A stretch of 42,683 nt of DNA from a virus: IMG/VR virus record IMGVR_UViG_3300032213_000855, positions 1-42,683 of that record; one strand, given 5' to 3'. Shown here piece by piece: positions 4,465 to 35,895 of the stretch; the stretch's first letter is position 1, and every line of letters begins with the position of its first letter. The notes beneath the pieces are model-generated. The model was not told the origin of the DNA, made no database searches, and saw only the letters and a list, made by a program, of their open reading frames with translations. The position numbers were made by a program, and so were the translations under genes.

Positions 4465-4479
4465 TTCTAAGGGGAGCGC

Positions 4480-4731
4480 ATGGCATATTATTTTACAACA
4501 CCTACAGTAAGTGAGGGACCACTTGCTGACGGGCCGTTATTCAGCCGTTACAGGCTCACTAAGGGTGTATCAGTGATTAAGGAAGACGGAGTATACCGCG
4601 AACTGCAAAGCCCGTCTAGCGAGGAAATAGAGGCTTCTGAAGCCTTTTACCTTGGAGGCATAACCTATGAGGTTAACCTTGCGGAGAAAGCCAGTTTAGA
4701 GGCTGCAGGATATACGGTGACTACTGTATGA
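4480..4731 (+). CDS. Hypothetical head protein, 83 aa
   Basis: A small acidic protein directly after the coat gene. It has no membrane span or Cys cluster. The C-terminus (GGITYEVNLAEKASLEAAGY) is a pattern I associate with small proteins following coat genes in actinophages, of unknown function. The start is supported by AAGGGGAG a few bases upstream. The end overlaps the next gene as ATGA, implying translational coupling. A head-completion or decoration role is possible but not shown. Confidence 0.75.
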   Translation: MAYYFTTPTVSEGPLADGPLFSRYRLTKGVSVIKEDGVYRELQSPSSEEIEASEAFYLGGITYEVNLAEKASLEAAGYTVTTV

Positions 4732-5048
4732 AGCATTGGGAATATCATCCAGTTCCTGAAGATGACTGTTTTGGATGTAAGGCTTTAGGACTACAAATTA
4801 ATACCGGTGATGCGAAGGCTAGTAATGGTAGCCGTATGACTAACAAAGAGTGGGACAAGGAATTGGATGCTTACGCCTCTGCTCGCAAGCAAGGCATTCA
4901 ACCAGCAGGAACAAGCATGAAAGCAATCAGAGAAGCGCACAGAGCCTCAGAGGCTATGGGCAAGGCTTACCATGCAGATACAATGATAGATAGCAAAGTC
5001 ATAAATAATAAATCCGTATCAACACTAAAAGAATTGGGGCAACTATAA
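4728..5048 (+). CDS. Conserved small phage protein with CxxC, 106 aa
   Basis: A hydrophilic protein with an N-terminal DDCFGCKALGLQ motif (Cys ~14 and 17) followed by INTGDA, and a Lys/Glu/Ala-rich helical remainder. I associate this CFGCKALGLQ motif with small actinophage proteins next to the coat gene, without a known role. Two cysteines alone do not make a full zinc site, unless it dimerises. It starts inside the previous stop (ATGA) and its own stop overlaps the next start (TAATG), so it belongs to a tightly coupled run. Confidence 0.75.
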   Translation: MKHWEYHPVPEDDCFGCKALGLQINTGDAKASNGSRMTNKEWDKELDAYASARKQGIQPAGTSMKAIREAHRASEAMGKAYHADTMIDSKVINNKSVSTLKELGQL

Positions 5049-15899: not shown

Positions 15900-16096
15900 T
15901 GACAGCAATGGAATGGGCTGGGTTGGCAGTCGCAGTAACAACTATAGTAGCAAGTTTTGTAGGTTCAGTTAGATGGCTTGTAAAGCATTATCTAAGTGAA
16001 CTTAAAATAAATGGGGGCAGTTCCGTTAAAGACCAAGTGAATCGATTGGAAACCCGCGTTGACCAAATTTATATCCTTCTTTGCGAGAAAGAATAA
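15899..16096 (+). CDS. Small membrane protein with coiled coil, holin-like
   Basis: A 65-residue protein. A hydrophobic helix at residues ~5-27 is followed by a Lys/Asp/Glu-rich helix (VKDQVNRLETRVDQIYILL) that looks like a coiled coil. This layout occurs in small phage membrane proteins next to lysis genes, often annotated as holin or holin-associated. The start is coupled to the tail gene by TAATG. It overlaps the PA14 protein by 38 bases. Could be a holin, an antiholin, or an anchor for the neighbour. Confidence 0.65.
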   Translation: MTAMEWAGLAVAVTTIVASFVGSVRWLVKHYLSELKINGGSSVKDQVNRLETRVDQIYILLCEKE

Positions 16097-17872: not shown

Positions 17873-18391
17873 ATGGGACAAAAAGAAGACTTCCTTAAAG
17901 TAGCCGAAGGCGAAGTAGGAACTGTAGAAGGACCTAAAGACAACGAGACCAAGTATGGCAAGTTCACAAAGGCGAACTTCCAACCTTGGTGTGGTTCGTT
18001 CGTAATGTGGGTGGCTAACGAAGTGAAACTCAAACTTCCTAACTGCGTCTATACCCCTGCTGGTAAAGCAGGATTTCAGGGAACTGGTGCTTGGAGCGCT
18101 GCTGAAACTGCAAAGCCTAAACCAGGAGACATTGTGTTCTTTGACTTTGTTAAAGGTGGAGCAGCAGTTGAGCACGTTGGAATTGTCCTAAAGGACAACG
18201 GTGATGGAACAATCACCACCATCGAAGGCAACACCGCAGGAGATAAAAAGAAAAGCAAGAGCGAAGCCAACGGAGGCGAAGTGGCTATTAAGACACGTGC
18301 TTACAAGGCTAAGAACAAGCGCGGCTTGCTACCTTTTGTGGTAGGCTTCGGAAGACCTGCTTTCAAAGCAGAATCAAAGGAGATAAAATGA
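17873..18391 (+). CDS. Endolysin, CHAP-type amidase/peptidase
   Basis: A 172-residue cell-wall hydrolase. The CHAP signature is visible: Cys40 in QPWCGSFVMWVANE, a PKPGDIVFFDF strand, His101 in VEHVGIVL, and Glu118/Asn120 in IEGNT. These are the expected Cys-His-(Glu/Asn) catalytic residues that cleave peptidoglycan amide or peptide bonds. No signal peptide is present, so it needs a holin to reach the wall. There is no separate binding domain; the Lys-rich C-terminal ~50 residues may help wall contact. It sits between membrane-protein genes, the classic lysis cassette. Confidence 0.88.
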   Translation: MGQKEDFLKVAEGEVGTVEGPKDNETKYGKFTKANFQPWCGSFVMWVANEVKLKLPNCVYTPAGKAGFQGTGAWSAAETAKPKPGDIVFFDFVKGGAAVEHVGIVLKDNGDGTITTIEGNTAGDKKKSKSEANGGEVAIKTRAYKAKNKRGLLPFVVGFGRPAFKAESKEIK

Positions 18392-20497: not shown

Positions 20498-21286
20498 ATG
20501 AGAACTCTTGCTCGTGCAGTCGGAAGTAAGGACATAGGTGGAGAACCAATTCCACACGTGTTCCGCTCTTTCGAGGTTAACAAAATTGTTATACGCAGAG
20601 CAGAAGTGTCTATGATTGCTGGCACTCCAGGGGCAGGCAAGTCAACGCTTGCCCTTGCGATTGCCTTACGGTCTAAGGTTCCAACTCTTTATATTAGCGC
20701 AGACACTAATGCTCATACAATGGCTATGCGCCTGCTATCTATGATAACTGGGCAAGCACAAAGTGTGGCTGAGAAAGCACTTATAGAATCTGTTGAAGAT
20801 TCACGTAGAATTATTAATGAAAGTTCGGGGCATATCTTCTGGTCATTTGAGTCAGCACCTACTCTTGCTGATTTGGATATGGAAGTATCTGCTTTTGAAG
20901 AACTATGGGGTTGTCCTCCAACGCTAATCGTTGTAGATAACCTTATGGATATTGCTGGTGATAGTGGTGATGAATTCGGTAGTATGCGTTCTAATATTAA
21001 AGAACTTAAATACTTAGCACGAGATACTAATGCTGCAGTTCTAATCCTCCATCACACTAAGGAATCATATGTCGGAAATCCTTGTCAGCCACGCTCTGCA
21101 CTACAAGGTATGGTGGCACAACTACCTGCTTTAATTTGCACAGTAGGCTCTAATGCTCCTGGTTATATTGCTGTTGCTGCGGTTAAGAACCGCTATGGCA
21201 AAGCAGACCCATCAGGAGATACTTCTTTTTGGCTAACATTCAACCCTGAAGTAATGGAAGTAGCCGATATACCCGAAAGGATATAA
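20498..21286 (+). CDS. RecA/DnaB-type AAA ATPase (RepA-like helicase)
   Basis: A 262-residue ATPase. Walker A GTPGAGKST lies at ~42-50, Walker B LIVVDNLMD at ~142-150, and AAVLILHHTKES follows, as in hexameric RepA/DnaB-like helicases and KaiC-type ATPases. There is no N-terminal primase-binding domain, so it is the minimal helicase form common in actinophages. It probably loads on the fork and works with the primase encoded ~1.8 kb downstream. A DNA-repair role is an alternative. Confidence 0.85.
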   Translation: MRTLARAVGSKDIGGEPIPHVFRSFEVNKIVIRRAEVSMIAGTPGAGKSTLALAIALRSKVPTLYISADTNAHTMAMRLLSMITGQAQSVAEKALIESVEDSRRIINESSGHIFWSFESAPTLADLDMEVSAFEELWGCPPTLIVVDNLMDIAGDSGDEFGSMRSNIKELKYLARDTNAAVLILHHTKESYVGNPCQPRSALQGMVAQLPALICTVGSNAPGYIAVAAVKNRYGKADPSGDTSFWLTFNPEVMEVADIPERI

Positions 21287-21287
21287 A

Positions 21288-21374
21288 ATGGATAAGAGAG
21301 AATTAATTCCTCAAGTCATTCCCGATTGGTCGCCTACTGATGGCGACGATTGGAATGAAGAAGATGACGAGTAA
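21288..21374 (+). CDS. Tiny acidic protein, 28 aa
   Basis: ATG at 21288 directly follows the helicase stop with two bases between. The product, MDKRELIPQVIPDWSPTDGD followed by DWNEEDDE, is strongly acidic at its C-terminus. It overlaps the next frame. The spacing and codon pattern suggest a real micro-gene, possibly a DNA mimic or a peptide that modulates the helicase. That role is speculation from charge. Confidence 0.45.
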   Translation: MDKRELIPQVIPDWSPTDGDDWNEEDDE

Positions 21375-21579
21375 AGATATCTGGGAATTACAACCAGACT
21401 ATAAAGAAAGCATGGACCTGCGGGGTGAACCTACCAAGGTTTGTCCTTGCGGGTCTTTTTTATGGAAGTTACTGGTCGAGTGGGACCAGGATAGTGATAC
21501 GATAAGTTCTTACTTTACTGATATGGAGTGTGCTGTTTGTGGTTCCAAAGCAACAGCCCCCACAGAGGAGAGATTATGA
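21364..21579 (+). CDS. Actinophage zinc-ribbon protein, 71 aa
   Basis: Conserved pattern VCPCGSFLWKLLVEWD ... YFTDMECAVCGSKATAPT: two C-x-C / C-x2-C knuckles separated by a beta hairpin, forming a complete four-cysteine zinc ribbon. I associate this exact layout with a small protein of unknown function in many actinobacteriophages. The start MTSKDIWEL (21364) is preferred to earlier in-frame ATGs at 21340 and 21355 because it overlaps the stop of the tiny upstream gene. Likely nucleic-acid or protein binding. Confidence 0.78.
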   Translation: MTSKDIWELQPDYKESMDLRGEPTKVCPCGSFLWKLLVEWDQDSDTISSYFTDMECAVCGSKATAPTEERL

Positions 21580-22004
21580 AAATAGAAAACTGGAAAGTAT
21601 GGGTAGCATGTATTGTAGTCTTTGCGGTTATGTCGCCGCAAAATGCGGTTGCGTCACTGATGAAAGCCCCAACTTTTATGCAGGTTAAATTCTGCATGGC
21701 TAAGCAACAGTCGATGGCTTACATGAAACAAATTGCTAAAGACTATGGAAGACAACGTGTTAAACAATTAGGTTGGAGTAAGAAAGAATGGAAAGCATTA
21801 CTTACTCTTTGGAATAAAGAATCTCGTTGGGATTACAAAGCAGATAACCCTAAGTCAACTGCTTATGGAATTCCTCAGATTCTTGATTTACCTGAGCATC
21901 TATCCATATCGGAACAGGTTGAAGCAGGGCTGAAATACATCCAACATAGGTATAAAACGCCTACTTCAGCGCTTGCCCACCATCACCGCAAAGGCTGGTA
22001 TTAA
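21576..22004 (+). CDS. Secreted lytic transglycosylase-like protein, 142 aa
   Basis: Residues 1-27 form a signal peptide (MKIENWKVWVACIVVFAVM, cleavage near AVA). The C-terminal part carries the lysozyme-like transglycosylase signature: Glu82 in LWNKESRWDY, then NPKSTAYGIPQI, and VEAGLKYIQHRY with a final HHHRKGWY. These enzymes cut the glycan strand of peptidoglycan and yield anhydro-sugars. The start at 21576 is chosen because GGAGAG lies upstream and it keeps the signal peptide intact. It is unusual to find it inside the early replication block, away from the lysis cassette. Confidence 0.8.
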   Translation: MKIENWKVWVACIVVFAVMSPQNAVASLMKAPTFMQVKFCMAKQQSMAYMKQIAKDYGRQRVKQLGWSKKEWKALLTLWNKESRWDYKADNPKSTAYGIPQILDLPEHLSISEQVEAGLKYIQHRYKTPTSALAHHHRKGWY

Positions 22005-22370
22005 GTGGCTAATCCCAATGGGAGAAAAGGCTCACTCTTTGAAACATCTGTGCTCAAGTGGTTACGGACTAAAGCCGTAACCGCTGAGCGTTTAACTAAA
22101 GCCGGTGCTAAAGATGAAGGTGACATTGTTGTAACTGCTAATGGCAAGGTTTATATCCTTGAACTGAAAGCAACTAAAGCAATTAAGTTACCGGAGTATT
22201 GGGCAGAGGCAGTCATCGAAGCGCAACACTACGCAGAGGCAAGAAACCTCAGCGAGATACCACCGTCATATGTTATGCTTAAGCGTAGAATGGCAGGTAT
22301 CGAGAAGGCTTGGGTGATAGAAGATGCGGAACAGTGGATTCAAAGAATCACCGCGTGCAAGTGTAATTGA
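22005..22370 (+). CDS. Holliday-junction resolvase-type PD-(D/E)XK nuclease
   Basis: A 121-residue protein starting at GTG right after the previous stop. GRKGSLFETSVLKWL (Glu13), GDIVV (Asp40) and YILELKAT (Glu53, Lys55) match the E...D...ExK catalytic pattern of Hjc-like and related small nucleases. It probably resolves branched DNA before packaging or during recombination. It overlaps the primase zinc-finger gene by 47 bases. A VRR-NUC-type nuclease is an alternative label. Confidence 0.75.
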   Translation: MANPNGRKGSLFETSVLKWLRTKAVTAERLTKAGAKDEGDIVVTANGKVYILELKATKAIKLPEYWAEAVIEAQHYAEARNLSEIPPSYVMLKRRMAGIEKAWVIEDAEQWIQRITACKCN

Positions 22371-22713
22371 TATTGCGCCTATACTTGAACATTATGGAGC
22401 GAAAGTTCCTATTCGTAGTGGTTGGAGCAGCATACGCTGCCCCTTCCACGACGATACTCACAAGTCAGCAACTGTGAATACAAGTGAAAATGTATTTGCT
22501 TGCTTTGCTTGTCAGGTAAAAGGCAATACATATAAAATTATTATGGACACGGAAAGGTTGGACTTTAATGAAGCAGTCAAGTTCGCAGAAAGAATCTCTG
22601 GGCAAAGCCGCAAAGTATTACGCAACAGCCATAGAGGAAGCGTCGGAATACCTAGAAGAACGCGGAATCAGTCTGGAGACGGCTCGGAAGGTCGGATTAG
22701 GCGTGGTTCTTGA
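22324..22713 (+). CDS. DNA primase, CHC2 zinc-finger part
   Basis: A 129-residue frame. Residues ~35-75 are a CHC2 primase zinc site: Cys39, His42 (RCPFHDDTHKSATV), Cys60 and Cys63 (FACFACQVKGN). The following segment DFNEAVKFAERISG is the usual post-finger helix. After about residue 90 the frame becomes Arg/Ser-rich and unlike a primase, while the expected continuation is found in the +1 frame (next entry). Either two subunits are made from overlapping genes or a +1 frameshift joins them. Confidence 0.82.
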   Translation: MRNSGFKESPRASVIDIAPILEHYGAKVPIRSGWSSIRCPFHDDTHKSATVNTSENVFACFACQVKGNTYKIIMDTERLDFNEAVKFAERISGQSRKVLRNSHRGSVGIPRRTRNQSGDGSEGRIRRGS

Positions 22714-23191
22714 CCCAATGACAGGACACGAACAATATGAGAATCGCTTATCAATCCCTTACGTCACACGCACAGGTGTGGTTGACATTAGGTTCCGGGC
22801 AATGGATGCGTCAGAACCGAAGTATATGGGGTTGGTTGGTGCAAACACACACCTATACAATACCCGCGCTTTTTTCAGGGCGAGTGATTACATATGTATT
22901 TGTGAGGGTGAGATTGACACGATTACGTTGGATTTTGGTTGTAATCTCCCGTCGGTTGGTGTTCCTGGAGTCAACAACTGGAAAAAGCATTACACCAAAC
23001 TCCTAGCCGACTTTGATAAAGTCTTTATGTTTGCCGATGGCGACCAAGCAGGACACGAATTCTCCAAATCTCTCACACGGGAACTCGGAAATGTTGTTAC
23101 AATTCAGATGCCAGATGGCGAAGATGTTAACTCCATATACATCAAACGAGGTGCTGAGTTCTTCACTCAAAAGATTGAGAGTTCGAGATAA
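22568..23191 (+). CDS. DNA primase, TOPRIM catalytic part
   Basis: A 207-residue frame in the +1 phase relative to the zinc-finger part. It has ASEYLEERGISLETARKVGL, then RLSIPYVTRTGVVDIRFRA, and a TOPRIM domain with Glu113 (CEGEIDTIT) and Asp157/Asp159 (MFADGDQAG). This is the RNA-primer synthesis core of DnaG-type primases. ATG at 22568 has GGAAAGG about ten bases upstream, so independent initiation is possible. The 146-base overlap with the CHC2 frame is long for two unrelated genes. Confidence 0.85.
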   Translation: MKQSSSQKESLGKAAKYYATAIEEASEYLEERGISLETARKVGLGVVLDPMTGHEQYENRLSIPYVTRTGVVDIRFRAMDASEPKYMGLVGANTHLYNTRAFFRASDYICICEGEIDTITLDFGCNLPSVGVPGVNNWKKHYTKLLADFDKVFMFADGDQAGHEFSKSLTRELGNVVTIQMPDGEDVNSIYIKRGAEFFTQKIESSR

Positions 23192-23547
23192 TGCTAATGC
23201 CTGACGAAGATGGCGTATTTAGTTGCGAGGACTGCGATTATAAAAGCCCTGATGTATTTGACTTGCTTTCACATTGCGAAACAGATTTCTTCTGGAGCGT
23301 AAAGTTGTCACGCAGATATTCATTTGACTTATTCCAATTCTTGCAGGCTGTTGATGAACTGGCTGACGATGGTGATATAGACCACATTAAAGATTTAACT
23401 CAGGCAGTAGCCCTTGCCTTTATTAATTCATCTGAGGGCAACGATACATTTAATAAGTTTATCAACGAGAATATTGTTCGTAGCAATATTGATTCAGTTA
23501 TAAAGGAACTAGAGGAAATGCTAAAGGATGAAAATGAATCACGATAA
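23191..23547 (+). CDS. Zinc-finger-like acidic protein, 118 aa
   Basis: The N-terminus shows a C2HC-like finger, FSCEDCDYKSPDVFDLLSHC (Cys, Cys, His, Cys). The remaining ~95 residues are acidic and helical. The start overlaps the primase stop as TAATG. Its placement after primase suggests a replication accessory or a regulatory protein. No family was recognised beyond the finger. Confidence 0.65.
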   Translation: MLMPDEDGVFSCEDCDYKSPDVFDLLSHCETDFFWSVKLSRRYSFDLFQFLQAVDELADDGDIDHIKDLTQAVALAFINSSEGNDTFNKFINENIVRSNIDSVIKELEEMLKDENESR

Positions 23548-23941
23548 AGATATGGCTGACTGGTTAAAAAAAGACAGAGAACGTATGAGAAAAGCCGTTC
23601 CTCCTAAGGAAACAAAACCTTACCTACCTTTGCCAGTTAATAAGTTAAGTGATACCGAACCCTCAAAGTTCGAGTTAGCACTATGGGAATTAACTGACGA
23701 ACTGGCAGAACTACTACTAAAGAAACACAAGGACTATGGTCCAAAGAATATTGCAGATGCACCTGGCGGTGCTCTCAATGGACTAAGAGTTCGCATACAC
23801 GACAAGACTGCTCGCATCAATAACCTAGTTGATTCGGGTGCTAAGCCAGAGAATGAATCACTTGAGGATTCCTTTAAGGACTTAGCGAATTACGCAATCA
23901 TAGCGCTTATGGTGCTACGAGGACAATGGAGTAACCAATGA
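23528..23941 (+). CDS. DUF1599 / MazG-like nucleotide-associated protein
   Basis: A 137-residue protein. The helical core LLLKKHKDYGPKNIADAPGG, then RVRIHDKTARINNLV, and ESLEDSFKDLANYAIIALMV fits the all-alpha DUF1599 (nucleotide-modification-associated domain 1) group, related in shape to MazG/dUTPase-type pyrophosphatases. The Glu/Asp/Lys pattern suggests metal-dependent nucleotide handling, but the exact substrate is unknown. The N-terminal ~40 residues are charged and extra. The gene overlaps both neighbours (20 bases, and ATGA). Confidence 0.75.
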   Translation: MKMNHDKDMADWLKKDRERMRKAVPPKETKPYLPLPVNKLSDTEPSKFELALWELTDELAELLLKKHKDYGPKNIADAPGGALNGLRVRIHDKTARINNLVDSGAKPENESLEDSFKDLANYAIIALMVLRGQWSNQ

Positions 23942-24213
23942 AAATATTCGGACCATACAAAGGGAGTGAACAGAATGGCGGTAGGAAAATATATGTCATC
24001 AAGCGCAAGAAAAAAGATGGCACTACTGTTACTACTTCTACTAATAAGGCTCGGTTGGACTACAAAAAAGCAACGGGCAAAAAACTAAAACGTGACCAAG
24101 AAGTAGACCACAAAGACAATGGTGGTCGCAAAGGTAATGATAAAATATCTAACCTAAGAGTCCTATCCAAGAAAAAAAATGTAGGCTTAGAGAATAAGAG
24201 AAGAGCCAAATAA
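23938..24213 (+). CDS. Small HNH endonuclease
   Basis: A 91-residue basic protein. The HNH signature is visible as QEVDHKDNGGRKGNDKISNL followed by RVLSKKKNVGLENK, with Asp-His, Asn and the final Asn in the expected places. The N-terminal half is a Lys/Thr beta part. HNH proteins of this size are either DNA-nicking enzymes or homing-type elements. Because it is overlapped by its neighbours (ATGA and TAATG), it is integrated in the operon rather than a recent insertion. Confidence 0.75.
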   Translation: MKIFGPYKGSEQNGGRKIYVIKRKKKDGTTVTTSTNKARLDYKKATGKKLKRDQEVDHKDNGGRKGNDKISNLRVLSKKKNVGLENKRRAK

Positions 24214-24953
24214 TGAAAACCATCGTCTGTATTTCTGACTTGCAGGTGCCTTACCACGATGTAGAAGCCACGAAGGCTGTGGCTAAATTTATTAAGGCTT
24301 ACCAACCAGATACTGTCGTATCTTGTGGTGATGAAATGGATATGCAGACAATCTCGAAATGGAGTAAGGGAACAGAGTTAGAGTTTGAACGCTCTATTGG
24401 GCGTGACCGAGACTTAACTCGTCAGGTTCTATATGACTTAACTGTTGAACATATGGTTCGCAGTAATCATACTGACCGCTTATTTAATACTGTTGCTATG
24501 CGTGCTCCGGGATTACTTGGATTACCTGAACTGCAACTAGAAAACTTCTTAGGGCTTAAAGAACTTGAGATTGAATACCACACAGACCCATATCAATTAG
24601 CCCCAGGTTGGCTTCTAATGCACGGAGATGAAGGCAACGTTCAACCTACTGCCGGCGCTACTGCATTGGGCTTAGCGAAGCGCTCAGGTATGTCAGTAGT
24701 CTGTGGGCATACGCATCGCATGGGCTTAACTCATCAGACTCAAACATATCGTGGTGGTAAGCCTAAGACTATTTGGGGTATGGAACTTGGAAACCTCATG
24801 GATTATCGTAACGCAAAATATATCAAGGCTGGATTGTTTACTTGGCAACAAGGCTTTGGCATACTTAAAGTGGATGGCAGCAATGTATACCCGTCGCTCG
24901 TGCCTATCGTAAACAATTCATTTACCGTGGAAGGCAAAACCTGGCGATGGTAA
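24213..24953 (+). CDS. Calcineurin-like metallophosphoesterase
   Basis: A 246-residue enzyme. Metal-binding motifs in order: ISDLQVPYHD (Asp9; the usual D-x-H is D-x-Q here, with His15), SCGDEMD (Asp ~40), RSNHTDR (Asn/His), LLMHGDEGN and CGHTHRMG. The set is complete for a two-metal phosphoesterase. Phage members are often tied to DNA or nucleotide phosphate removal and repair, but the substrate cannot be named. It starts at a TAATG junction and overlaps the sigma-like gene by seven bases. Confidence 0.83.
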   Translation: MKTIVCISDLQVPYHDVEATKAVAKFIKAYQPDTVVSCGDEMDMQTISKWSKGTELEFERSIGRDRDLTRQVLYDLTVEHMVRSNHTDRLFNTVAMRAPGLLGLPELQLENFLGLKELEIEYHTDPYQLAPGWLLMHGDEGNVQPTAGATALGLAKRSGMSVVCGHTHRMGLTHQTQTYRGGKPKTIWGMELGNLMDYRNAKYIKAGLFTWQQGFGILKVDGSNVYPSLVPIVNNSFTVEGKTWRW

Positions 24954-25612
24954 TTGAAGCGTATGAGAATCTAGTATCAGCCATTGCTAGCGAGTTTGCT
25001 CGTAAGTATAAAATGGTTGAGGCTTCTGACTTGCGTCAGGAACTTTGGATATGGTTTCTCACACATCCTAACAAAGTAAAGCATTGGGAAGATACACTCA
25101 ATCATAAACAGGCAACTAAACTTGTTGCTCGTTCATTGCGTAATGCTTCTAAAGATTATTGCCAGAAGGAGAAGGCAGCCACACTTGGCTATCGTGTAGA
25201 GGATAACTATTATTACGATAAGGAATTGTTAGAAGCAATCCTTCCTGCCGTGTTGACTGGTGATAGGAACGCACCTTCTACTGATAACTTGAGTTTTACT
25301 AATACGAAGAAGGTTGCCTCAGAGGGCAATAACTGGTTTGCTATGTGTGCTGACGTTGAGAAGGCACTCGGAAAACTCGTGAAAGAACAGTATTGGATTA
25401 TCAATCTATGCTATGGTTTAGGCATGGATAGTGCTGCGGTATCAGTCGAAATGGATATCTCACAAGATGCTGTGCGTATGCGTAAGAACAGAGCATTGAA
25501 TAACCTATTGAATATACTTGGCGGGGAAAGACCACGCAGAGAACGGGACTACACAGGACAGGAGAACGACGTTGAGCGAACCTCAGATGAACAATTCCTT
25601 GATAGCGAGTGA
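24947..25612 (+). CDS. Sigma-70-like factor
   Basis: A 221-residue protein. The N-terminus (YENLVSAIASEFARKYKMVE followed by DLRQELWIWFL) resembles sigma region 2 helices. The C-terminal ~60 residues (LVKEQYWIINLCYGLGMDSA then AVSVEMDISQDAVRMRKNRA) form a region 4-like helix-turn-helix. The final ~30 residues are charged. Such small phage sigma-like proteins can direct host RNA polymerase to late promoters. There is a segment between the two regions without clear homology. Its place near the end of the early operon fits a switch from early to late transcription. Confidence 0.7.
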   Translation: MVIEAYENLVSAIASEFARKYKMVEASDLRQELWIWFLTHPNKVKHWEDTLNHKQATKLVARSLRNASKDYCQKEKAATLGYRVEDNYYYDKELLEAILPAVLTGDRNAPSTDNLSFTNTKKVASEGNNWFAMCADVEKALGKLVKEQYWIINLCYGLGMDSAAVSVEMDISQDAVRMRKNRALNNLLNILGGERPRRERDYTGQENDVERTSDEQFLDSE

Positions 25613-26100: not shown

Positions 26101-26254
26101 ATATCAGGTTAATCAAGGCACACACAATAAACAATACGGCTATGCCTGACCATATAACTATCTTGAGAATCTCACCCACGCTAGGCTCAAGGAACTCGTA
26201 ATCCTTGAACTCATCGTCAGGCTCGTCATACTCGCTGAAGTAACTATCACTCAT
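26099..26254 (-). CDS. Small single-span membrane protein, 51 aa
   Basis: Start ATG at 26254 with AAGGAG about seven bases upstream. The N-terminal ~25 residues are very acidic with Tyr, Phe, Asp and Glu. Residues ~30-51 are a hydrophobic helix (ILKIVIWSGIAVLFIVCALI). This is a C-tail membrane anchor with an acidic cytoplasmic face. It is the last gene of the leftward operon and overlaps the WhiB gene by eight bases. Function unknown. Confidence 0.65.
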   Translation of the reverse strand: MSDSYFSEYDEPDDEFKDYEFLEPSVGEILKIVIWSGIAVLFIVCALINLI

Positions 26255-26591
26255 ACGTATCTCCTTGATTCAGTATGGCTTCCGCACGTAGGTCGCTAAC
26301 ATACACGGATTGTAAGTTAGTCATATTCAGATTACGCTGAATCTCAGCGCGTTCATACCTATCGTGTGATGCCCATATCCCTTGTAAGTTATCAAATTGT
26401 ATTGCGTAATCAAAACATTCTTCATACGCATCACAGTTCAAGCATACACCCCTAGCACGCAAACCTTCTTGCGTATACGAGTAGTTGTATTTGATGTATG
26501 CCTTAGTGCCTAACTCCTCAGGAAACCAATCCTCAGGAGTCAGGCTACCAGCACACGCAGGAACTTGTGTGAACTTAGGCAAGTTACTCAT
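26247..26591 (-). CDS. WhiB-family iron-sulfur transcription factor
   Basis: A 114-residue protein with the four conserved cysteines Cys13, Cys50, Cys53 and Cys59 (C-x36-C-x2-C-x5-C) and the GIW turn at 71-73 followed by a basic tail. These features define WhiB proteins, which bind an Fe-S cluster and act with the host main sigma factor. WhiB proteins occur in Actinobacteria and their phages, so this is the strongest host clue in the window. In phage TM4 a WhiB homologue alters host septation and superinfection; a similar role here is inference. The start overlaps the previous stop by ATGA. Confidence 0.9.
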   Translation of the reverse strand: MSNLPKFTQVPACAGSLTPEDWFPEELGTKAYIKYNYSYTQEGLRARGVCLNCDAYEECFDYAIQFDNLQGIWASHDRYERAEIQRNLNMTNLQSVYVSDLRAEAILNQGDTYE

Positions 26592-27074: not shown

Positions 27075-27303
27075 CATCGGAATCCTCGCACTCATGGTCA
27101 TCTTCGACACGCTCCTCGTTGCAATCATCACATACCAGCCATTGGTCGGTGATGCGTGTGTCCTCGATAGAAGCCCTATGCGATTCGTCATAGAACATCT
27201 TAATCGCTTCCTCTCTTGCTTCTGAGGCACGCGTGGCTTCTATCTCCTCACTCGTGTAATGAGCGATTACTTCAATCTCGTAACGCATAGTTAGCGTAGC
27301 CAT
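27055..27303 (-). CDS. Acidic Cys-containing small protein, 82 aa
   Basis: An alpha/beta N-terminus (MRYEIEVIAHYTSEEIEATR) is followed by a helix and then LVCDDCNEERVEDDHECED, a possible zinc loop with Cys, Cys, His and Cys. The C-terminal end is very acidic. The start overlaps the upstream stop as TAATG. No family was recognised. One of several small zinc-like proteins in this operon. Confidence 0.65.
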   Translation of the reverse strand: MATLTMRYEIEVIAHYTSEEIEATRASEAREEAIKMFYDESHRASIEDTRITDQWLVCDDCNEERVEDDHECEDSDDVANYY

Positions 27304-27473
27304 TATTCCCCCTCGTTATCGTATATGAATTGACCCGCAAGGTTGCGATAGTAGTGAGCGCGCTTGATTAGCGCACTCGCCTTCTCCTTCTCATCGTTGG
27401 CTAACGCACGCTGAGCGTCAGCCTCGAACATGTCGGCACGCTTGCCGTAGTAATACTGCGTAGGCACTCCCAT
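27303..27473 (-). CDS. Hypothetical helical protein, 56 aa
   Basis: ATG at 27473 overlaps the stop of the amidotransferase as TAATG, which decides the start against a GTG at 27494. The product MGVPTQYYYGKRADMFEADA and the following Ala/Lys/Glu-rich helix has no Cys, no membrane span and no recognised motif. Coupling to the amidotransferase suggests a possible partner or adaptor of that enzyme. Confidence 0.6.
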   Translation of the reverse strand: MGVPTQYYYGKRADMFEADAQRALANDEKEKASALIKRAHYYRNLAGQFIYDNEGE

Positions 27474-28507
27474 TACTTCACCGCCTTTTTCCACACGCTC
27501 TCAGGTATCTCCTGCGAGTTGCCGTCTAAGAGTAGCCACTTACGCTGTTCGCTACTCCATTGGATACTAAACTCACGCTCACTTTCGGGAACGCTTCTTG
27601 TGTATTCATACATGCCTTTTGGAAAATCATCTACCATGATAGTTTCCTTAGGCTCGTGTAACTTGCTACCCTTAGGCTTCTTGTAGCACATACACGCTTC
27701 TACGTTCATCGAGCATAGTTGGCATGACTCGCAGAACACACAGATATACTGTGTATTTTCTAACTCGTCAGCATCTAATACAGCCATACACATGTCGCAT
27801 TGGTATTTGCTATCGTCATACACTTGCGTGGGACTTTTGGAACTACTCGGTGTGTATGAATCCATACCCCACGCGGAGTTGCCCCATTCGCTATCGTAGT
27901 AGCCGTTGTATTTCATAGGCGCAGGCTTAGCGTAGTAGTTAAGGTCGCATGAATCATTCGACCACCACACACCGGTATCATCTACGTTACCCTTGTTTTC
28001 GTGTAGTAGATACAGGTCATACTTGGCACGCGGGTCTACTGTGAGAACCGCTATCTTAGAACCCGTAGAGAAGTCCTCAAGCATGTTGTATATCTGAGGA
28101 TTATCTAACGCAGTAACACCGCCGATTCTTGCGAGAATATCTTCCGCAAAGATACGTGTGTCGCTACGTAAGTCACCCTTGAGTTCCTCGGTAGGTAGCA
28201 CGCCGTTGTGTGCTAACACAGTAAGTCCGTCTGAACCTACATAGAACGGGTGGCAGTTATCTAAGGTAGTCGAACCATGAGTGGCGTATCTTGCGTGCCA
28301 TATGGCGTAACCTTCTGGATACTTAGCACGCATCGCTAGGAAAGCGTTGATGCTATCGTCTGCGCTCATGGTGCGCTCAACGTGTATCCTGTTCTCACTC
28401 GGAATTGCTATCGCAAACCCGAAGCCGTCAGGATTATTAAGCGCAGAGTTTTCTAACTTCTCACGAGAAGGTAGGACTTGCGGTGGGATTACACATAACA
28501 TACACAT
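27473..28507 (-). CDS. Class II glutamine amidotransferase with zinc-ribbon extension
   Basis: A 344-residue Ntn-type amidotransferase. Cys2 directly after the initiator Met is the expected nucleophile, which fixes the start at 28507. Further signature blocks are NNPDGFGFAI (24-33), HARYATHGSTTLDNCHPF (71-88, with Arg73 and the N-x-HPF loop) and AHNGVL (99-104). This domain releases ammonia from glutamine. The C-terminal ~130 residues are an extension with CDMCMAVLDADEL, CVFCESCQLC and MCYKKP, probably two zinc sites. It follows the amidoligase stop by three bases, so the two enzymes likely act together. Confidence 0.88.
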   Translation of the reverse strand: MCMLCVIPPQVLPSREKLENSALNNPDGFGFAIAIPSENRIHVERTMSADDSINAFLAMRAKYPEGYAIWHARYATHGSTTLDNCHPFYVGSDGLTVLAHNGVLPTEELKGDLRSDTRIFAEDILARIGGVTALDNPQIYNMLEDFSTGSKIAVLTVDPRAKYDLYLLHENKGNVDDTGVWWSNDSCDLNYYAKPAPMKYNGYYDSEWGNSAWGMDSYTPSSSKSPTQVYDDSKYQCDMCMAVLDADELENTQYICVFCESCQLCSMNVEACMCYKKPKGSKLHEPKETIMVDDFPKGMYEYTRSVPESEREFSIQWSSEQRKWLLLDGNSQEIPESVWKKAVK

Positions 28508-28510
28508 AAC

Positions 28511-30127
28511 TTATACCTCGCTTCTAATGCGCTCTGATGCGAACGCTTCGTCTATGATTAGCATTAAATTCGGATACTGAATCTCATTATCCGTTACGAA
28601 CTTCACGAACCTTGACCAAGCAAATGGCGTGTGCTTAGCGACTATTTTCATGTTGCGTGTGTATTCACAAACAGCGTGAACGAACTCGATATTGGATAGC
28701 AAGCGTGCCTTGCGTAGCGAACCCTTGAATATCCGTATCTCGTAAGTGTGGTCGTTATACACATTGACTACCTCGTAACGCCCGTTACGTTGGTCGTTGT
28801 GTAATACCTTCCTGAGTATCTGACCCTTGTCTCCGAATGAAGCGTAATCGTTAGCCTTGCGACCTGCGATACGCTCTACTTGGTATTGGTTATCGTAGAT
28901 GAACTTGGTGAAGCGCATCTTGTGTGATACTTCTGCTTGGTATCCCGAAGGCGCATCGAAAGCCTTGCGTGATATGTGAACGTGGAAGCCACAGTTGCTA
29001 TTGTTCCACGATACGAAGTTACCGGATACGAGTGTGCTAAGGAATGACCAATCGAAATTGGTGTGGTATTCCTCTAGTGTGTGAGGGTGTGTAACTACCT
29101 CGAAGCCAGCCTCAAGCGAGCCGTCATACTTCATATACACACGCTCACGTAACTTGCCCTCGATGAGTGAGGCGATGTAGTTGTTATCCGCATCGTTCCC
29201 GTCTGATTCCTCGACTTCTAACTCGAAGCCTAAGTGATACTTACCAGCCCCAAAGAATTGCGCTCTAGGCTTGTATGTATATGAGTAGATAGTCTCGCCA
29301 TCGTTGCGATAGCACTCGTGGTCGTTGCCTTCTGCGTAATGATAATCGCACTCAGGACACTCGATAGGCTGACGATAGCAGTAATCACACAGATTACGTT
29401 CACGAGCATCTGAGTAAGTCAGACTATCTACGTGGTAATACTCGTTACATCTCTCGCAATCTGCGTATTCCTCGTCTAGCAACTTCACTTCAGCGCAAGT
29501 GTTACAATGCGCTTGTCTTTCGATTTGGCGAAAGGTTACGCGACCCTCACCTGCCCATTGGAAGTTGCCTTCACACACTTCGCAACGCATGATACATCTG
29601 GCGTGTGCGACTATCGTCTCGCCAAAAATATCTTTGGCTTGCCTCTCGTGGTCGGCGTGTATGTAATCACCGCAGTAACACATGAGTGGTTCAGGTTGCG
29701 TGGCGAGTGGCATATCCTCGCTAGTGAACATCTTGTATGAGGTGAATGATGATGCGTATTCTGCGTTGTTATACATGAATTGGCTAACCTCATCACGCTG
29801 ACATGAACGCATCTGAGCCTTGCGAACCACGCAGTTGTAGCAGAACTTGTAGTCTAGATTCTGCTCCCACGCTTCTGCGTGGATGTCTGTCTCGATACGC
29901 CGGTCTTGTGTGTAGTAATACACACGACCATAAGTGCTACACGATGAGCAGGTATTCCACTCTCCGTGTGGGTGATTGTAGAAGGTGATGCGAGCATAGG
30001 CTACGGCTACAAGGTTATCCATGTATTCCGCGCCCTCTGCTGTGATGCGTGCCTTCATTACTTCCACACGAGCATCTAGCCCGTCTGGAATCCACAAGGA
30101 TTCTTGTGGCGTTGCGTTATCTGTCAT
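28511..30127 (-). CDS. Amidoligase with N-terminal multi-zinc-finger region
   Basis: A 538-residue protein from ATG 30127 (TAATG junction). Residues ~35-270 hold a long string of Cys/His pairs such as CSSCSTYG, CYNCVV, CYCGDYIH, CEVCEGNF, CNTCAEV, CERCNEYYH, CDYCYRQ and CPECDYH, i.e. several zinc fingers. The C-terminal half is an amidoligase of the glutamine-synthetase-like fold: YHLGFELEVE (~298), GFHVHIS (~380) and YEIRIFKGSL (~462) supply the usual acidic metal-binding, His and Arg residues. The family forms amide bonds between a carboxylate and an amine using ATP. The adjacent class II amidotransferase suggests that ammonia or an amine is supplied. The target is unknown. Confidence 0.85.
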   Translation of the reverse strand: MTDNATPQESLWIPDGLDARVEVMKARITAEGAEYMDNLVAVAYARITFYNHPHGEWNTCSSCSTYGRVYYYTQDRRIETDIHAEAWEQNLDYKFCYNCVVRKAQMRSCQRDEVSQFMYNNAEYASSFTSYKMFTSEDMPLATQPEPLMCYCGDYIHADHERQAKDIFGETIVAHARCIMRCEVCEGNFQWAGEGRVTFRQIERQAHCNTCAEVKLLDEEYADCERCNEYYHVDSLTYSDARERNLCDYCYRQPIECPECDYHYAEGNDHECYRNDGETIYSYTYKPRAQFFGAGKYHLGFELEVEESDGNDADNNYIASLIEGKLRERVYMKYDGSLEAGFEVVTHPHTLEEYHTNFDWSFLSTLVSGNFVSWNNSNCGFHVHISRKAFDAPSGYQAEVSHKMRFTKFIYDNQYQVERIAGRKANDYASFGDKGQILRKVLHNDQRNGRYEVVNVYNDHTYEIRIFKGSLRKARLLSNIEFVHAVCEYTRNMKIVAKHTPFAWSRFVKFVTDNEIQYPNLMLIIDEAFASERIRSEV

Positions 30128-30279
30128 TATCCTGCCTTCCGTGTGAGTGAACGAGCCACAATCTTGTGGAACTCGCGTGCTTCCTGCCAACCATCACGAT
30201 TACCCATCTGATACGCTGAGTAACCTACTACGAGTGCTAGAATCAAGTCAATCAGGAGATTGAACCCGTTATAGAACAT
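30127..30279 (-). CDS. Small membrane protein, first gene of leftward operon, 50 aa
   Basis: ATG at 30279 is chosen; the upstream in-frame GTG at 30348 would lie inside the leader hairpin. Residues ~5-24 form a hydrophobic helix (GFNLLIDLILALVVGYSAYQ) followed by a charged helix with Arg and Lys. It is therefore a single-span protein with a cytoplasmic basic tail. Its stop overlaps the amidoligase start (TAATG), which suggests a link, for example membrane targeting of the enzyme. GGAAGGAAG lies ~11 bases upstream. Confidence 0.65.
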   Translation of the reverse strand: MFYNGFNLLIDLILALVVGYSAYQMGNRDGWQEAREFHKIVARSLTRKAG

Positions 30280-30308
30280 CACGATAGATACTTCCTTCCG
30301 TAGAAATG

Positions 30309-30357
30309 AAAAACTCCCCTGAGTGTCTAGAAAGGTCTTAACACACACTCAGGAGAG
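30309..30357 (-). terminator. Attenuator-like hairpin in the leader of the amidoligase operon
   Basis: On the minus strand a 13-bp stem (30345-30357 with 30314-30326; one G-T pair) closes an 18-base loop and is followed by TTTTT (30313-30309). It lies between the leftward promoter (~30382-30410) and the first gene (30279). An intrinsic terminator at this place would cut most transcripts short unless an antiterminator acts. A second small hairpin, ACCTC-TTTT-GAGGT (30360-30373), precedes it in the leader. Confidence 0.7.
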
Positions 30358-30381
30358 CAACCTCTTTTGAGGTCAAGGAGA

Positions 30382-30414
30382 ACCCTACCATAGTCCAATT
30401 TTGAACTCAAATTG
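30382..30414 (-). promoter_or_regulatory. Leftward promoter of amidoligase operon with overlapping inverted repeat
   Basis: Minus strand: -35 TTGAGT (30410-30405), 17-base spacer, -10 TAGGGT (30387-30382) preceded by TGG as extended -10. An inverted repeat CAATTT/AAATTG (30396-30414) overlaps the -35 and spacer, as expected for an operator. The -10 block ATGGTAGG is nearly the same as in the divergent rightward promoter at 30870-30900 and similar to the early promoter at 19247. Confidence 0.6.
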
Positions 30415-30494
30415 ACCTTAAAAAGCCCTTAGCAGAAGAAAAGAAAATACGTGGGTGCGTGGGTAATAGGTTCGTTGGTTAGTTCGTTCGTATG

Positions 30495-30592
30495 ACAGCC
30501 ATGTATGCCACGCGTGTGCGTCAGGGTGTGCGCTCGAGCATACACGTGTGTGCGTGCCGGTCAGGACAGCGATGTATCTCACGCGTGTGCGT
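30495..30592 (+). repeat. Pair of 27-base imperfect direct repeats
   Basis: Copy 1 at 30495-30521 and copy 2 at 30566-30592 share the frame ACAGC-ATGTAT-CACGCGTGTGCGT with three mismatches. The start-to-start spacing is 71 bases. Both contain ACGCGTG, a word that recurs in this part of the genome. They lie 80-180 bases from the DnaA boxes and look like iterons or binding sites for a phage initiator. Confidence 0.6.
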
Positions 30593-30671
30593 GCGTATCG
30601 TGCGTGCGTGCGTGTGCTTGCCTGGGCCTGGAATTTTTTTTCTACCCTGGGTCGCGTGGATCCGCGTAAAT

Positions 30672-31806: not shown

Positions 31807-33678
31807 ATGGGTGCTAAAGCGGGTGTTGAACACCACAGTGTTATTGCGCTAAGGGAAGCAAAGGCTAAAGTTCTGTCCTTTGTTGCCCAAGGATTATCTA
31901 TCCAAGATGCCATTATCAAGGCTGACAGAAAGCCTGATGTAATGAAGGACTGGAAGAAAGACCTAAAATTCATCAAGGAACTTGAGAAGGCCAAAGAGAC
32001 TGGCAACCAAGTTATGGATATGGTCACAGGTGATGCCAAGTATAAGATTGGCTTTGCTGAGTTCTCCAAGGAGTTCCTAGACTCACCTATCTTCCCTCAT
32101 CACCAGAACTGGATTGACATCCTTGAGGGCAACGAGCCATCTTGGCTCCACGACTCTATGGTCTATGAGAAGGCTTCTTCTAAACGCCTCCTAGTCAATG
32201 TGCCTCCTGAGCACGCTAAGTCTACAGTTATCACTGTGAACTATTGCGTCTATCGGATTGCCATGAATCCCAATGTCAAAATTACTATTGTCTCTAAAAC
32301 TCAAGAGCGTGCCAAGGAGTATCTCTACTCCATCAAGCAACGCCTGAGTCACGAACGCTGGGCTAAGATGCAGGCTGTCTATGGCTCCGCCGGTGGCTGG
32401 AAGGAAGACGCTGACTCTTGGAAGGCTGAGAGAATCTACATCTCTCGCGACTCTACTGAAAAGGACCCTACGGTCCAAGCCCTAGGTATCGGTGGTCAAA
32501 TCACCGGTGCTCGTTCAGACTTGATTATCCTTGATGACGTTGTGACTACCTCCAACGCTCATGAATGGGAGAAGCAACTCCTATGGCTCCAGCGAGATGT
32601 TATCACTCGTCTGGGTGATGCTGGTAAGTTGCTTATTGTGGGGACTCGTATTGCTGCTAATGACCTCTACCGAGAACTACGTCAACCTGAGCACTGGTCT
32701 TCTGGTAAGACTCCCTTTACATACATGCTGATGCCAGCAGTATTAGAAATTTATGAGAAGCCTGAAGACTGGGTTACTCTATGGCCTAAGTCCCATATAC
32801 CTTGGGAGGGCAACGAAGATGAAATTCAGCCAGATGAGAATGGACTCTACCCCAAGTGGGATGGTCCCGCCCTCTTTCGCAGACGCTCTGAAGTCTCTGC
32901 CTCTGCTTGGGCGCTAGTTTATCAGCAACAAGATGTGCAGGAAGATTCTATCTTCTCACCTCTATGTGTGCAAGGCTCCATTAATGGTATGCGAAAGCGT
33001 GGTCCATTAAAGCCAGGTGCTCCTGGTCATCCTGATGAAGTTCGCTCAGGCTACACCATCATGGGTCTAGACCCTGCTATGACAGGTAATACTGCAGCAG
33101 TGATTATGACTGTAGATAGAATTACTCGTAAGCGTTACATCCTTGACGTTGAGAATATGAAAGACCCTACGCCTCAGAAGATTCAACACTTGATTGAAGA
33201 CTGGGCTAGGAAGTATCGACCTAATGAACTTAGAATTGAAACTAACGCTCATCAGAAGGCTTATGCCCTTGATGATATCTTAAGAACTTTCCTCGCTTCA
33301 AATGGTATTCGCTTCTCTAGTCAGTTCACTGGCAAGAATAAATGGGATACTGGTTTTGGTGTGGCAGCGATGTCTGGACTATTCGGGACTGCTCGTAACA
33401 ATACCCACCAAGATGATAACTTAATAGAATTACCTTCTCAAGATGGCTCAGAAGGAATCAAGGCTCTAATCCAGCAATTGATTACTTGGAGACCTGACAC
33501 TAAGGGTAAGACTGACTGCGTAATGGCTCTATGGTTCTGCGAACTAAGAGCACGCGAGATAGTAAACAATAGCAAGATGAATCAAACTCACCTGTCAAAC
33601 AAGTGGGCTACACCAAGACAATTACAGTATCGCGGGTCCATTAACCTTAATGACTACGAGATGGAATATCAAGAATAG
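31807..33678 (+). CDS. terL: Terminase large subunit with N-terminal HTH-like region
   Basis: A 623-residue packaging motor. Residues ~15-60 (VLSFVAQGLSIQDAIIKADR and the next helix) look like a helix-turn-helix, as in small terminase subunits. The ATPase follows: Walker A-like LVNVPPEHAKST (~129-140), Walker B LIILDDVV (~239-246), and GKLLIVGTR. The C-terminal nuclease has MGLDPAMTG (Asp), ELRIETNAHQKA (Glu) and DCVMALWFCE (Asp), the RNase H-like metal triad. No separate small terminase gene was recognised, so this protein may carry both functions. The gene opens the late block after a structured leader. Confidence 0.92.
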   Translation: MGAKAGVEHHSVIALREAKAKVLSFVAQGLSIQDAIIKADRKPDVMKDWKKDLKFIKELEKAKETGNQVMDMVTGDAKYKIGFAEFSKEFLDSPIFPHHQNWIDILEGNEPSWLHDSMVYEKASSKRLLVNVPPEHAKSTVITVNYCVYRIAMNPNVKITIVSKTQERAKEYLYSIKQRLSHERWAKMQAVYGSAGGWKEDADSWKAERIYISRDSTEKDPTVQALGIGGQITGARSDLIILDDVVTTSNAHEWEKQLLWLQRDVITRLGDAGKLLIVGTRIAANDLYRELRQPEHWSSGKTPFTYMLMPAVLEIYEKPEDWVTLWPKSHIPWEGNEDEIQPDENGLYPKWDGPALFRRRSEVSASAWALVYQQQDVQEDSIFSPLCVQGSINGMRKRGPLKPGAPGHPDEVRSGYTIMGLDPAMTGNTAAVIMTVDRITRKRYILDVENMKDPTPQKIQHLIEDWARKYRPNELRIETNAHQKAYALDDILRTFLASNGIRFSSQFTGKNKWDTGFGVAAMSGLFGTARNNTHQDDNLIELPSQDGSEGIKALIQQLITWRPDTKGKTDCVMALWFCELRAREIVNNSKMNQTHLSNKWATPRQLQYRGSINLNDYEMEYQE

Positions 33679-34131: not shown

Positions 34132-35895
34132 ATGGCTTTAGATATTGACAGCATAGCACGTAAGGTGCAGGTCCTTAAGGACAGGCACGCTGTTCGTGAT
34201 GCACGAATGGAAGTTATGCTTGCCATCCGTAAAGGAAATATGGTCACTACTTTTCCTGACCTATTTCCATCAGGCACAGATTCCTCAATGGTTGCAAACT
34301 TTATCGATGTTGCAGCACGCGACCTTGCTGAAGTTCTAGCACCACTTCCATCTTTTAACTGCTCAACAACTAATATTAACAATGATAGAGCGCGTGCCTT
34401 TGCTGATAAGCGCGGTATGCTTGCTAACAACTATGTTTATACTTCACGTCTTCAATCTCAGATGTATTGGGGAGCAGACTGGTATTTCACATATGGTTTC
34501 CTTCCCCTAATCATTGAAGCAGACTTTGAGAATAATCTTCCACGTATCCGTGTAGAAGACCCTATTGGTGCTTACCCTGAGTTTGATAGATTTGGTCGTT
34601 GCATCTCCTACTCAAAGCGTTACAACAAGACAATAGGCGAACTAGCAAATGATTATCCTGAGCACGCTAGTCAACTACTAGGTCCTTCAGGTTGGAACGG
34701 CAACACAGCAACTCCTGTTGAGATGATTCGCTACATGGATAAGAACACTATTGTTCTTTACATTCCTGAGCGTCAGAACTTAGTTCTATCACAGGCTAAG
34801 AATCCTCTAGGCAAGATGATGGTTTACATTGCCCGTCGTCCTGGAATTGATGATGAACCACGTGGACAGTTTGATGATGTAGTCGGCGTTCAACTAGCAC
34901 GTGCTCGTTTTGCTAACCTAGCAATGGAAGCAGCAGAGAAGTCTATCCAGGCTCCTATGACTATGCCTACCGATGTTATTGATATGCCTATGGGTCCTGA
35001 TGCTATTATCAGAACTGACTCACCACAAGGTGTAGGTCGCGTAAGACTAGATGTTCCTGCAGCAGCGTTCCAAGAACAAGCAACACTTGAATCAGAACTT
35101 CGTATTGGTGCTCGCTACCCTGAGGGTAGAACTGGAAACATCAACGCTAACATTATTACCGGTCAAGGTGTCCAAGCGCTGCTTGGTGGCTTCGACTCAC
35201 AAATCAAGGCTGGTCAAACAGTTCTAGCAGAAACACTTGAAGAAGTTATCAGTGGTTGCTTTGAACTTGACCAGATTCTCTTCGACGAAGAAAAAACAGT
35301 TCGTGGCGTTGCACAAGGTATGCCATATGAACTTAAGTATAAGCCAAGCAAAGACATCAAGAACGACTTCTCAATTGAAGTTCGTTATGGTCTTATGGCT
35401 GGACTCGACCCATCAAGAGCCCTAATCTTTTCACTACAAGCACTTGGTGCTGATTTAGTGTCAAAGGATTTCATTCGCCGCGAACTACCATGGAACGTAA
35501 ACGTTACATTGGAAGAGCAACGAATCGAAATAGAAAAAATGCGAGATAATCTCACAGCAGCAATCACAGCAAGCGCACAAGCCATACCCGCTATGGCAGC
35601 GCAGGGGCAAGACCCATCAAATCTAATAAAAAATATTGCTGATGTTATTGAACGTCGTCGCAACGGGGACAGCATAGAGGCTGCTGCTCTTGCAGTGTTT
35701 ACGCCACCGGCGCAAGCACCTGCACAGATGCAGCCAGAGACGGCTCCGATGGGCCAACAGGCTCCAGTTGAGCAGGCTCCCCAGTCCCCAGTCGCTCCTG
35801 GACAACCTCCCGTCGGAGCCCCTCAACAACCAGGACAACCACCTCAGGGTGGCGCTCCTGACTTAGCAACAATTCTTGCTGGATTGCAGGGATAA
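34132..35895 (+). CDS. Portal protein
   Basis: A 587-residue protein following TerL. The middle has the features of a portal: a DVAARDLAEVLAPLPSF segment, RIRVEDPIGAYPEFDRFGRC, LYIPERQNLVL, then helical stem and crown segments with QVLLGGF-like and RARFANLAMEAAE helices. The C-terminal ~75 residues are a Pro/Gln/Ala tail with repeated APQQPGQPPQ elements, probably disordered inside or around the head. It forms the dodecameric ring for DNA entry and exit. TTAGGAATCC lies upstream of the ATG. Identity rests on size, order after TerL and the overall pattern. Confidence 0.85.
   Translation: MALDIDSIARKVQVLKDRHAVRDARMEVMLAIRKGNMVTTFPDLFPSGTDSSMVANFIDVAARDLAEVLAPLPSFNCSTTNINNDRARAFADKRGMLANNYVYTSRLQSQMYWGADWYFTYGFLPLIIEADFENNLPRIRVEDPIGAYPEFDRFGRCISYSKRYNKTIGELANDYPEHASQLLGPSGWNGNTATPVEMIRYMDKNTIVLYIPERQNLVLSQAKNPLGKMMVYIARRPGIDDEPRGQFDDVVGVQLARARFANLAMEAAEKSIQAPMTMPTDVIDMPMGPDAIIRTDSPQGVGRVRLDVPAAAFQEQATLESELRIGARYPEGRTGNINANIITGQGVQALLGGFDSQIKAGQTVLAETLEEVISGCFELDQILFDEEKTVRGVAQGMPYELKYKPSKDIKNDFSIEVRYGLMAGLDPSRALIFSLQALGADLVSKDFIRRELPWNVNVTLEEQRIEIEKMRDNLTAAITASAQAIPAMAAQGQDPSNLIKNIADVIERRRNGDSIEAAALAVFTPPAQAPAQMQPETAPMGQQAPVEQAPQSPVAPGQPPVGAPQQPGQPPQGGAPDLATILAGLQG

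Follow-up and report, generated by a model that had tools for sequence, protein, structure and literature searches.

A predicted two-part glutamine-dependent amidation enzyme with zinc-like modules in a freshwater actinophage-like lineage

Introduction

Adjacent genes for an amidoligase (AL) and a class II glutamine amidotransferase (GAT) have been predicted in phages since 2009, and the enzyme type that is the subject of this study, encoded in the IMG/VR virus record IMGVR_UViG_3300032213_000855 (42,683 bases, 43.7% GC; the whole of this stretch is called the window), is known from other phages. PMC10580990 cites Iyer et al. 2009 and the Mycobacterium phage Marvin genome paper for such AL/GAT-II pairs, with a predicted role in the cell wall or on metabolites, describes pairs in OM43 phages and cites, again from Iyer et al. 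2009, a cell-wall/superinfection role for phiEco32. Related multi-enzyme cassettes are described in PMC5498523 and PMC3890496; for those of the phiEco32 and RIO-1 type, peptidoglycan tailoring is the role predicted in the literature (PMC5498523, PMC10580990). Our literature search found neither an experimental demonstration of peptidoglycan change by the phiEco32/RIO-1 cassette nor a paper testing a substrate of phage AL/GAT pairs. A sequence-only reading of the window had proposed a candidate for an undescribed system, which is only partly right, as such pairs had already been predicted in the works just cited.

In the window, AL and GAT are read here as one two-part glutamine-dependent amidation enzyme, with a probability of about 0.65, a figure that covers the type of enzyme and its mechanism and not its target. 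This reading rests on protein families, folds, conserved active sites, Cys/His ligands, purifying selection, near-obligate pairing of the two genes and their core status in the lineage. New here are the anatomy of the zinc modules and how well it is conserved, the finding that the two genes are near-obligate partners and core in the lineage, and the withdrawal of an earlier argument for action at the cell envelope.

Family, fold and active sites of the two proteins

AL, taken to start at an ATG and not at the upstream TTG, exceeds the Pfam cut-off of PF12224 (Amidoligase_2; 22.8 versus 22 bits) and matches phrog_16683, a phage family with no assigned function, at 8e-35. Only weak matches of the zinc-finger type were returned when solved relatives were sought by sequence in the PDB. 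The AlphaFold2 model, built with 50 natural sequences, has a mean predicted local distance difference test score (pLDDT) of 84, with values >90 over most of the zinc array and the catalytic core, and all 43 PDB fold matches at E <0.001 (Foldseek) are ligases of the glutamine synthetase (GS) fold, namely YbdK and a relative, glutamine synthetase, GmaS, Dop and PafA, the best of them being YbdK, a relative of gamma-glutamylcysteine ligase. In the model, the C-terminal half of AL adopts the GS/amidoligase fold. Residues E302, E304, K333, D335, E343, H382, H384, R423, N455, E463 and R465 are invariant in 50 relatives, so that the ExE (E302/E304), HxH (H382/H384) and ExR (E463/R465) motifs, which we take to be equivalent to GS active-site residues, are all kept. 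Fold and active site had been named beforehand as the points on which the amidoligase assignment could fail; the model matches that fold, and conservation extends to the acidic residues, the His and the Arg. AL is predicted to form amide bonds with the use of ATP.

GAT, for its part, exceeds the PF13230 (GATase_4) cut-off (28.6 versus 23 bits), and both enzyme assignments of the sequence-only reading are thus borne out at the level of the family. It matches phrog_25883, again a phage family with no assigned function, at 5e-35, and its model (pLDDT 82) finds the glutaminase domains of GlmS and PurF, with an E of 9e-7 for the GlmS glutaminase 1xff. The hallmarks of class II amidotransferases are present, i.e. 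the N-terminal Cys nucleophile, the N-terminal nucleophile (Ntn) fold, the glutamine-binding Arg/Asp and the oxyanion Asn-Gly, and C2, R73, T76, G78, N101, G102 and D116 are invariant in 49 relatives. Purifying selection acts on both proteins, the ratio of non-synonymous to synonymous substitution rates (dN/dS) against the close relative L008 being 0.28 for AL and 0.12 for GAT.

Zinc-like modules

N-terminal to its ligase core, AL carries an array of 20 Cys/His residues arranged in five quartets, in line with the 'at least seven Cys/His pairs' first noticed, and each position is Cys or His in 86-100% of 50 relatives. The zinc-like C-terminal extension that had been ascribed to GAT is likewise found after the Ntn core as eight Cys in two quartets (pLDDT ~73-89), conserved in 92-100% of 49 relatives. 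Both modules would bind metal. The profile of the AL array weakly resembles the LIM zinc fingers found in CRP proteins (E 0.002). The distant alignments (A1/A2) had diverged too far to be scanned for patterns.

Zinc knuckles are also compatible with binding of nucleic acids, and the array might hold DNA or tRNA while the pair amidates a carboxylated base, so as to evade restriction or alter translation. A protein with the DUF1599 domain (Nucleotide modification associated domain 1; E 2.5e-7, above cut-off) is indeed encoded in the window, clostridial pairs ride mobile elements, as described below, and counter-defence genes are common in mobile elements. However, the DUF1599 gene is unlinked to the operon, in which no base-modifying partner of the thymidylate/hydroxymethylase or glycosyltransferase type was found, and LIM fingers, which the zinc profile best resembles, mostly bind proteins. 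We consider amidation of a nucleic acid or nucleotide quite improbable.

Pairing of the two genes in phages and bacteria

A scan of IMG/VR with AL alone yielded 80 loci, 77 of which had room for a neighbouring gene, and in every one of these 77 AL is followed directly by GAT, encoded on the same strand. The gap is between -14 and +36 nt in 75; the remaining two are L076, in which start sites overlap, and L064, an apparent in-frame fusion. The latter (2446-4026, one open frame) was rejected as a functional fusion protein, as the N-terminus of AL is split off and GAT is without its first 11 residues and its catalytic Cys; an indel, a deletion or an assembly fault is the likely origin. The same gene order is found in Marvin (gp105/gp106), MEP402 (gp06/gp07), a spring-water podovirus, LUZ24 and phiEco32. 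Among bacterial AL loci, mostly clostridial mobile elements in which the pair travels with relaxase, integrase and recombinase genes, GAT is adjacent in ~80 of 82 with room. This count takes listed overlaps as adjacency; an automatic tally (61 'within 3 kb', 21 'no GAT') is too low, since stop-to-stop frames were measured and larger overlaps discarded.

AL was found in 1 of 395 genomes from the Actinoplanes phylum, the seed genome excluded, which argues against a borrowed host housekeeping function. This bears on the possibility that the product of AL is a metabolite with a gamma-glutamyl or other amide, with GAT as Ntn amidohydrolase or ammonia donor in the manner of EgtA/EgtC, the two forming an auxiliary metabolic pair. 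The best AL fold match, YbdK, and the presence of EgtC among those of GAT speak for such a small-molecule product; the near absence of AL from the sampled actinobacterial genomes is unlike borrowed host metabolism, it is hard to see what the zinc arrays would do for a small substrate, and no further biosynthetic genes were recognized in the operon. On balance it is improbable.

The pair as a core gene set

Relatives of the window were also drawn by its terminase or its phosphoesterase, and therefore without selection on AL; a locus was counted when 6 kb or more of sequence was available on the relevant side. The sample consists of close relatives only (~61-97% identity for terminase, 92-98% for phosphoesterase), and contigs may overlap between the two draws. 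AL and GAT are both present in 21/21 terminase-selected and 32/32 phosphoesterase-selected loci. Since all 53 loci carry both genes, the pair is a core gene set and not optional cargo of this freshwater actinophage-like lineage; always the same two genes, it is unlikely to be dispensable in this abundant group.

As a further alternative, the pair might serve the phage as an anti-phage defence system, whether a known or a candidate one. Its travelling in phages and integrative elements would agree with this, but it is core and not patchy in the window's lineage, and with E values up to 0.1 PADLOC models match neither AL nor GAT, be it from the window, from Marvin or from clostridia. A known defence system was rejected on the latter ground, and the defence explanation as a whole is very improbable.

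Proposed mechanism and target

In the two-part amidation enzyme proposed here, GAT, its N-terminal Cys exposed after removal of Met, would hydrolyse glutamine and pass ammonia to AL, which would activate a carboxylate with ATP and convert it to a primary amide. Such a transfer of ammonia is supported by the near-obligate adjacency of the genes, and the two proteins would act as a complex. The zinc-like arrays, with five sites in AL and two in GAT, probably join the subunits and dock a macromolecular substrate, and early expression of the pair is probable, from the WhiB operon divergent from the terminase gene.

Several observations weigh against the enzyme reading. The global TM-scores of the fold matches are low (0.21-0.30), as expected for a multi-domain query, and are uninformative on the substrate. 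The GAT fold also resembles, at lower rank, EgtC; this Ntn hydrolase does not donate ammonia but cleaves a gamma-glutamyl amide. In Clostridioides phage AR1086-1 (L005, AL at 3671-4783), an uncommon exception to the pairing, no GAT was detected near AL. The pair is accessory in the sister lineage, where helicase-selected loci with enough upstream sequence comprise 5 with the pair and 23 with no AL detected; 13 records of 20-77 kb, some of them fragments, are without detectable AL anywhere. Finally, no biochemistry of the AL-GAT family was found in the literature.

As for the target, a macromolecule is favoured because of the zinc array, which the AL of LUZ24 and phiEco32 does not have. Our tentative first choice, held at somewhat less than even odds, is a carboxylate carried by a protein or peptide of the host (or of the phage); the peptidoglycan stem peptide or its precursor, discussed below, comes second. 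The fullest version of the protein-directed proposal, namely that a zinc-scaffolded, glutamine-dependent phage enzyme post-translationally amidates a defined host protein early in infection (at side-chain Asp/Glu or at the C-terminus), is needed by the whole freshwater actinophage lineage and is common to clostridial mobile elements, is, taken as a whole, unlikely.

The envelope and peptidoglycan

The operon opens with a gene for a single-span membrane peptide, which had been taken as a hint of action at the envelope. This peptide has no match in Pfam or PHROG; homologues that share its YNGFN motif are found in the sister lineage, and the ratio of non-synonymous to synonymous differences (pN/pS) of YNGFN peptides is <1 in 55/55 pairs. 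Single-span peptides precede AL in most relatives; those of lineage 1 are of the fam8 type, those of lineage 2 (the sister lineage) of the YNGFN type, to which the window peptide belongs, and by a strict pattern one lies <=900 nt upstream of AL in 56 of 81 distinct loci, with 0 on the opposite strand. The YNGFN type was seen only in pair-carrying loci, a small sample. A fam8-type peptide, however, occurs in 12 of the 23 helicase-selected relatives where no AL was detected and is hence not specific, and in Marvin, the OM43 phages and other distant examples no such peptide lies directly upstream of AL; the peptide was accordingly dropped as an envelope clue.

A second clue fared no better. In the sister lineage the gene of an exported AggPromo/transglycosylase-like protein adjoins AL, and beside its helicase the window encodes a homologue, an AggPromo/SLT-like protein of 158 aa whose N-terminus is signal-like. 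Such homologues are widespread in related phages, independently of the AL-GAT pair, and a transglycosylase-like gene stands upstream of the helicase in all 23 pair-lacking helicase-selected relatives with enough sequence, a similar position, for which reason its place beside AL was rejected as evidence for peptidoglycan. As neither the peptide nor the transglycosylase-like gene is specific to the pair, neither indicates where the pair acts. In AL-lacking relatives other genes fill the slot that separates the SLT-like gene from the helicase module, among them, by eye, a DUF932-like gene of ~330 aa (L434, L479, L486, L490, L493, L451, L445, at ~3.6-5.0 kb); a DUF932-like gene is also found near AL in clostridial loci, e.g. 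L223.

On the peptidoglycan reading, the pair would amidate carboxylates of D-glutamate or meso-diaminopimelate, in the stem peptide or in its lipid-linked precursor, and the altered wall would block other phages or control lysis. PMC5498523 and PMC10580990, citing Iyer et al. 2009, ascribe to related cassettes a role in modifying peptidoglycan and excluding superinfection, AL and GAT of the window are remotely related by profile to those of LUZ24 and phiEco32, and the transglycosylase-like neighbour in the sister lineage has its homologue in the window. On the other side, that adjacency is background, the membrane peptide occurs without the pair too, and the RimK ATP-grasp, GGACT and COOH-NH2_lig markers of the phiEco32 cassette were undetected in the window. 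Phages carrying the pair infect both Gram-negative and Gram-positive hosts, which is neutral here. A peptidoglycan target is therefore rather doubtful, and amidation of a protein or peptide is retained as the first choice.

Genome context

The features of the window are collected in table 1. The closely packed minus-strand operon spans 30279-26099 and comprises the membrane peptide, AL, GAT, small genes and a WhiB-like regulator. Both junctions described by the sequence-only reading are seen in the sequence, i.e. a TAATG overlap between peptide and AL and a spacing of 3 bases between AL and GAT, and the coupling extends past GAT, whose stop overlaps the next start, again as TAATG; minus-strand genes beyond GAT, including WhiB, reach 26099.

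The terminase gene and the AL-GAT operon are divergent, and a low-complexity GTGCGTGCGTG-like stretch lies between the divergent operons. The leader hairpin ahead of the peptide gene, a possible transcription attenuator, had no match in an Rfam search; similar CACTC-type hairpins precede the peptide gene in a few relatives (L135, L028, L012, L037).

The remaining genome is an ordinary tailed phage gene set; a tRNA scan of the window found none. A PA14 domain (E 1.6e-9) lies in a TTG-started open reading frame (ORF) of 465 aa, possibly a carbohydrate-binding structural protein. The WhiB-like regulator and a protein similar to gp49 of mycobacteriophage L5, also encoded in the window, point to a predicted actinobacterial host, no finer than Actinobacteria.

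Table 1. Positions in the window of the genes and elements discussed (residues in protein numbering).
Feature	Position	Strand	Details and basis
Leader hairpin, ~14 bp then TTTTT	30314..30357	-	34 nt before peptide start codon; RNA fold of 30280-30420, z -3.2 versus shuffles
Single-span membrane peptide, first gene of operon	30127..30279	-	50 aa (MFYNGFNLLIDLILALVVGYSAYQ...); ORF and TAATG junction
GS-fold amidoligase (Amidoligase_2) with N-terminal zinc-like array	28511..30127	-	538 aa; PF12224; phrog_16683; fold; conserved catalytic residues
AL zinc-like array	29312..29950	-	C60 C63 C96 C99 / C150 C152 H175 C178 / C182 C185 C208 C211 / C224 C227 C247 C250 / C257 C260 H270 C272
Class II glutamine amidotransferase (Ntn glutaminase)	27473..28507	-	344 aa; Cys2 nucleophile; PF13230; phrog_25883; fold; invariant residues
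GAT C-terminal zinc-like module	27686..27799	-	C237 C240 C256 C259 / C262 C265 C272 C274
Next gene of operon, fam5	27303..27473	-	56 aa from coupled ATG; TAATG with GAT; 86 homologous matches in fetched relatives
WhiB-like regulator near operon end	26247..26591	-	PF02467, E 4e-8; 118 homologous matches in relatives
Low-complexity stretch	30460-30640		
Terminase	31807-33678		
Portal	34132-35895		
Major head protein	3235-4422		
TTG-started ORF with PA14 domain	16059-17456	+	
CHAP endolysin	17873-18391		
Helicase and primase	within 20498-23191		
AggPromo/SLT-like exported protein	21528-22004	+	
DUF1599 protein	23528-23941	+	
Phosphoesterase	24213-24953		
Sigma-like	24947-25612		

Comparison with known systems

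The 'peptidoglycan modification cassette' of phiEco32, LUZ24 and RIO-1 (Iyer et al. 2009; Hardies et al. 2013; PMC5498523, PMC3890496) shares with the window an Amidoligase_2-type AL followed by GAT-II, but it adds an ATP-grasp enzyme, a GGCT and a second COOH-NH2 ligase, and the AL of LUZ24 and phiEco32 is without the N-terminal zinc array. PF14395, PF06094 and PF08443 gave no match in the window, a record that may be incomplete, while PF14395 was detected in LUZ24 and phiEco32 as positive control. With the RimK, GGACT and COOH-NH2_lig companions undetected, membership of the window in this cassette type was rejected.

The OM43 (Methylophilales) phages MEP401 and MEP402 also have adjacent AL and GAT genes, in the early region (PMC10580990), but have few CxxC motifs in the AL N-terminus, a GAT without the full Cys cluster and a Gram-negative host. 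The clostridial mobile-element pairs (e.g. L206, L207, L210), at ~26-32% identity, have a Cys-rich AL N-terminus and GAT directly after AL, as in the window, from which they differ in being carried with relaxase, integrase and recombinase genes. PafA and Dop, which act on protein carboxylates, share the ligase fold with AL, a similarity at the fold level only, and are without an amidotransferase partner and without a zinc array.

In Marvin (gp105/gp106) and Marvin-like mycobacteriophages, AL and GAT are neighbours in the same order, with 29-31% (AL) and 33-34% (GAT) identity to the window, conserved catalytic motifs, an N-terminus of AL rich in Cys and a C-terminus of GAT with CxxC motifs; the AL N-terminus is shorter than in the window, 79 bp separate the genes and no clear single-span peptide stands directly upstream. 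Marvin, growing on M. smegmatis mc2 155, thus provides a culturable homologue of the window pair, in which the question of the target is directly testable.

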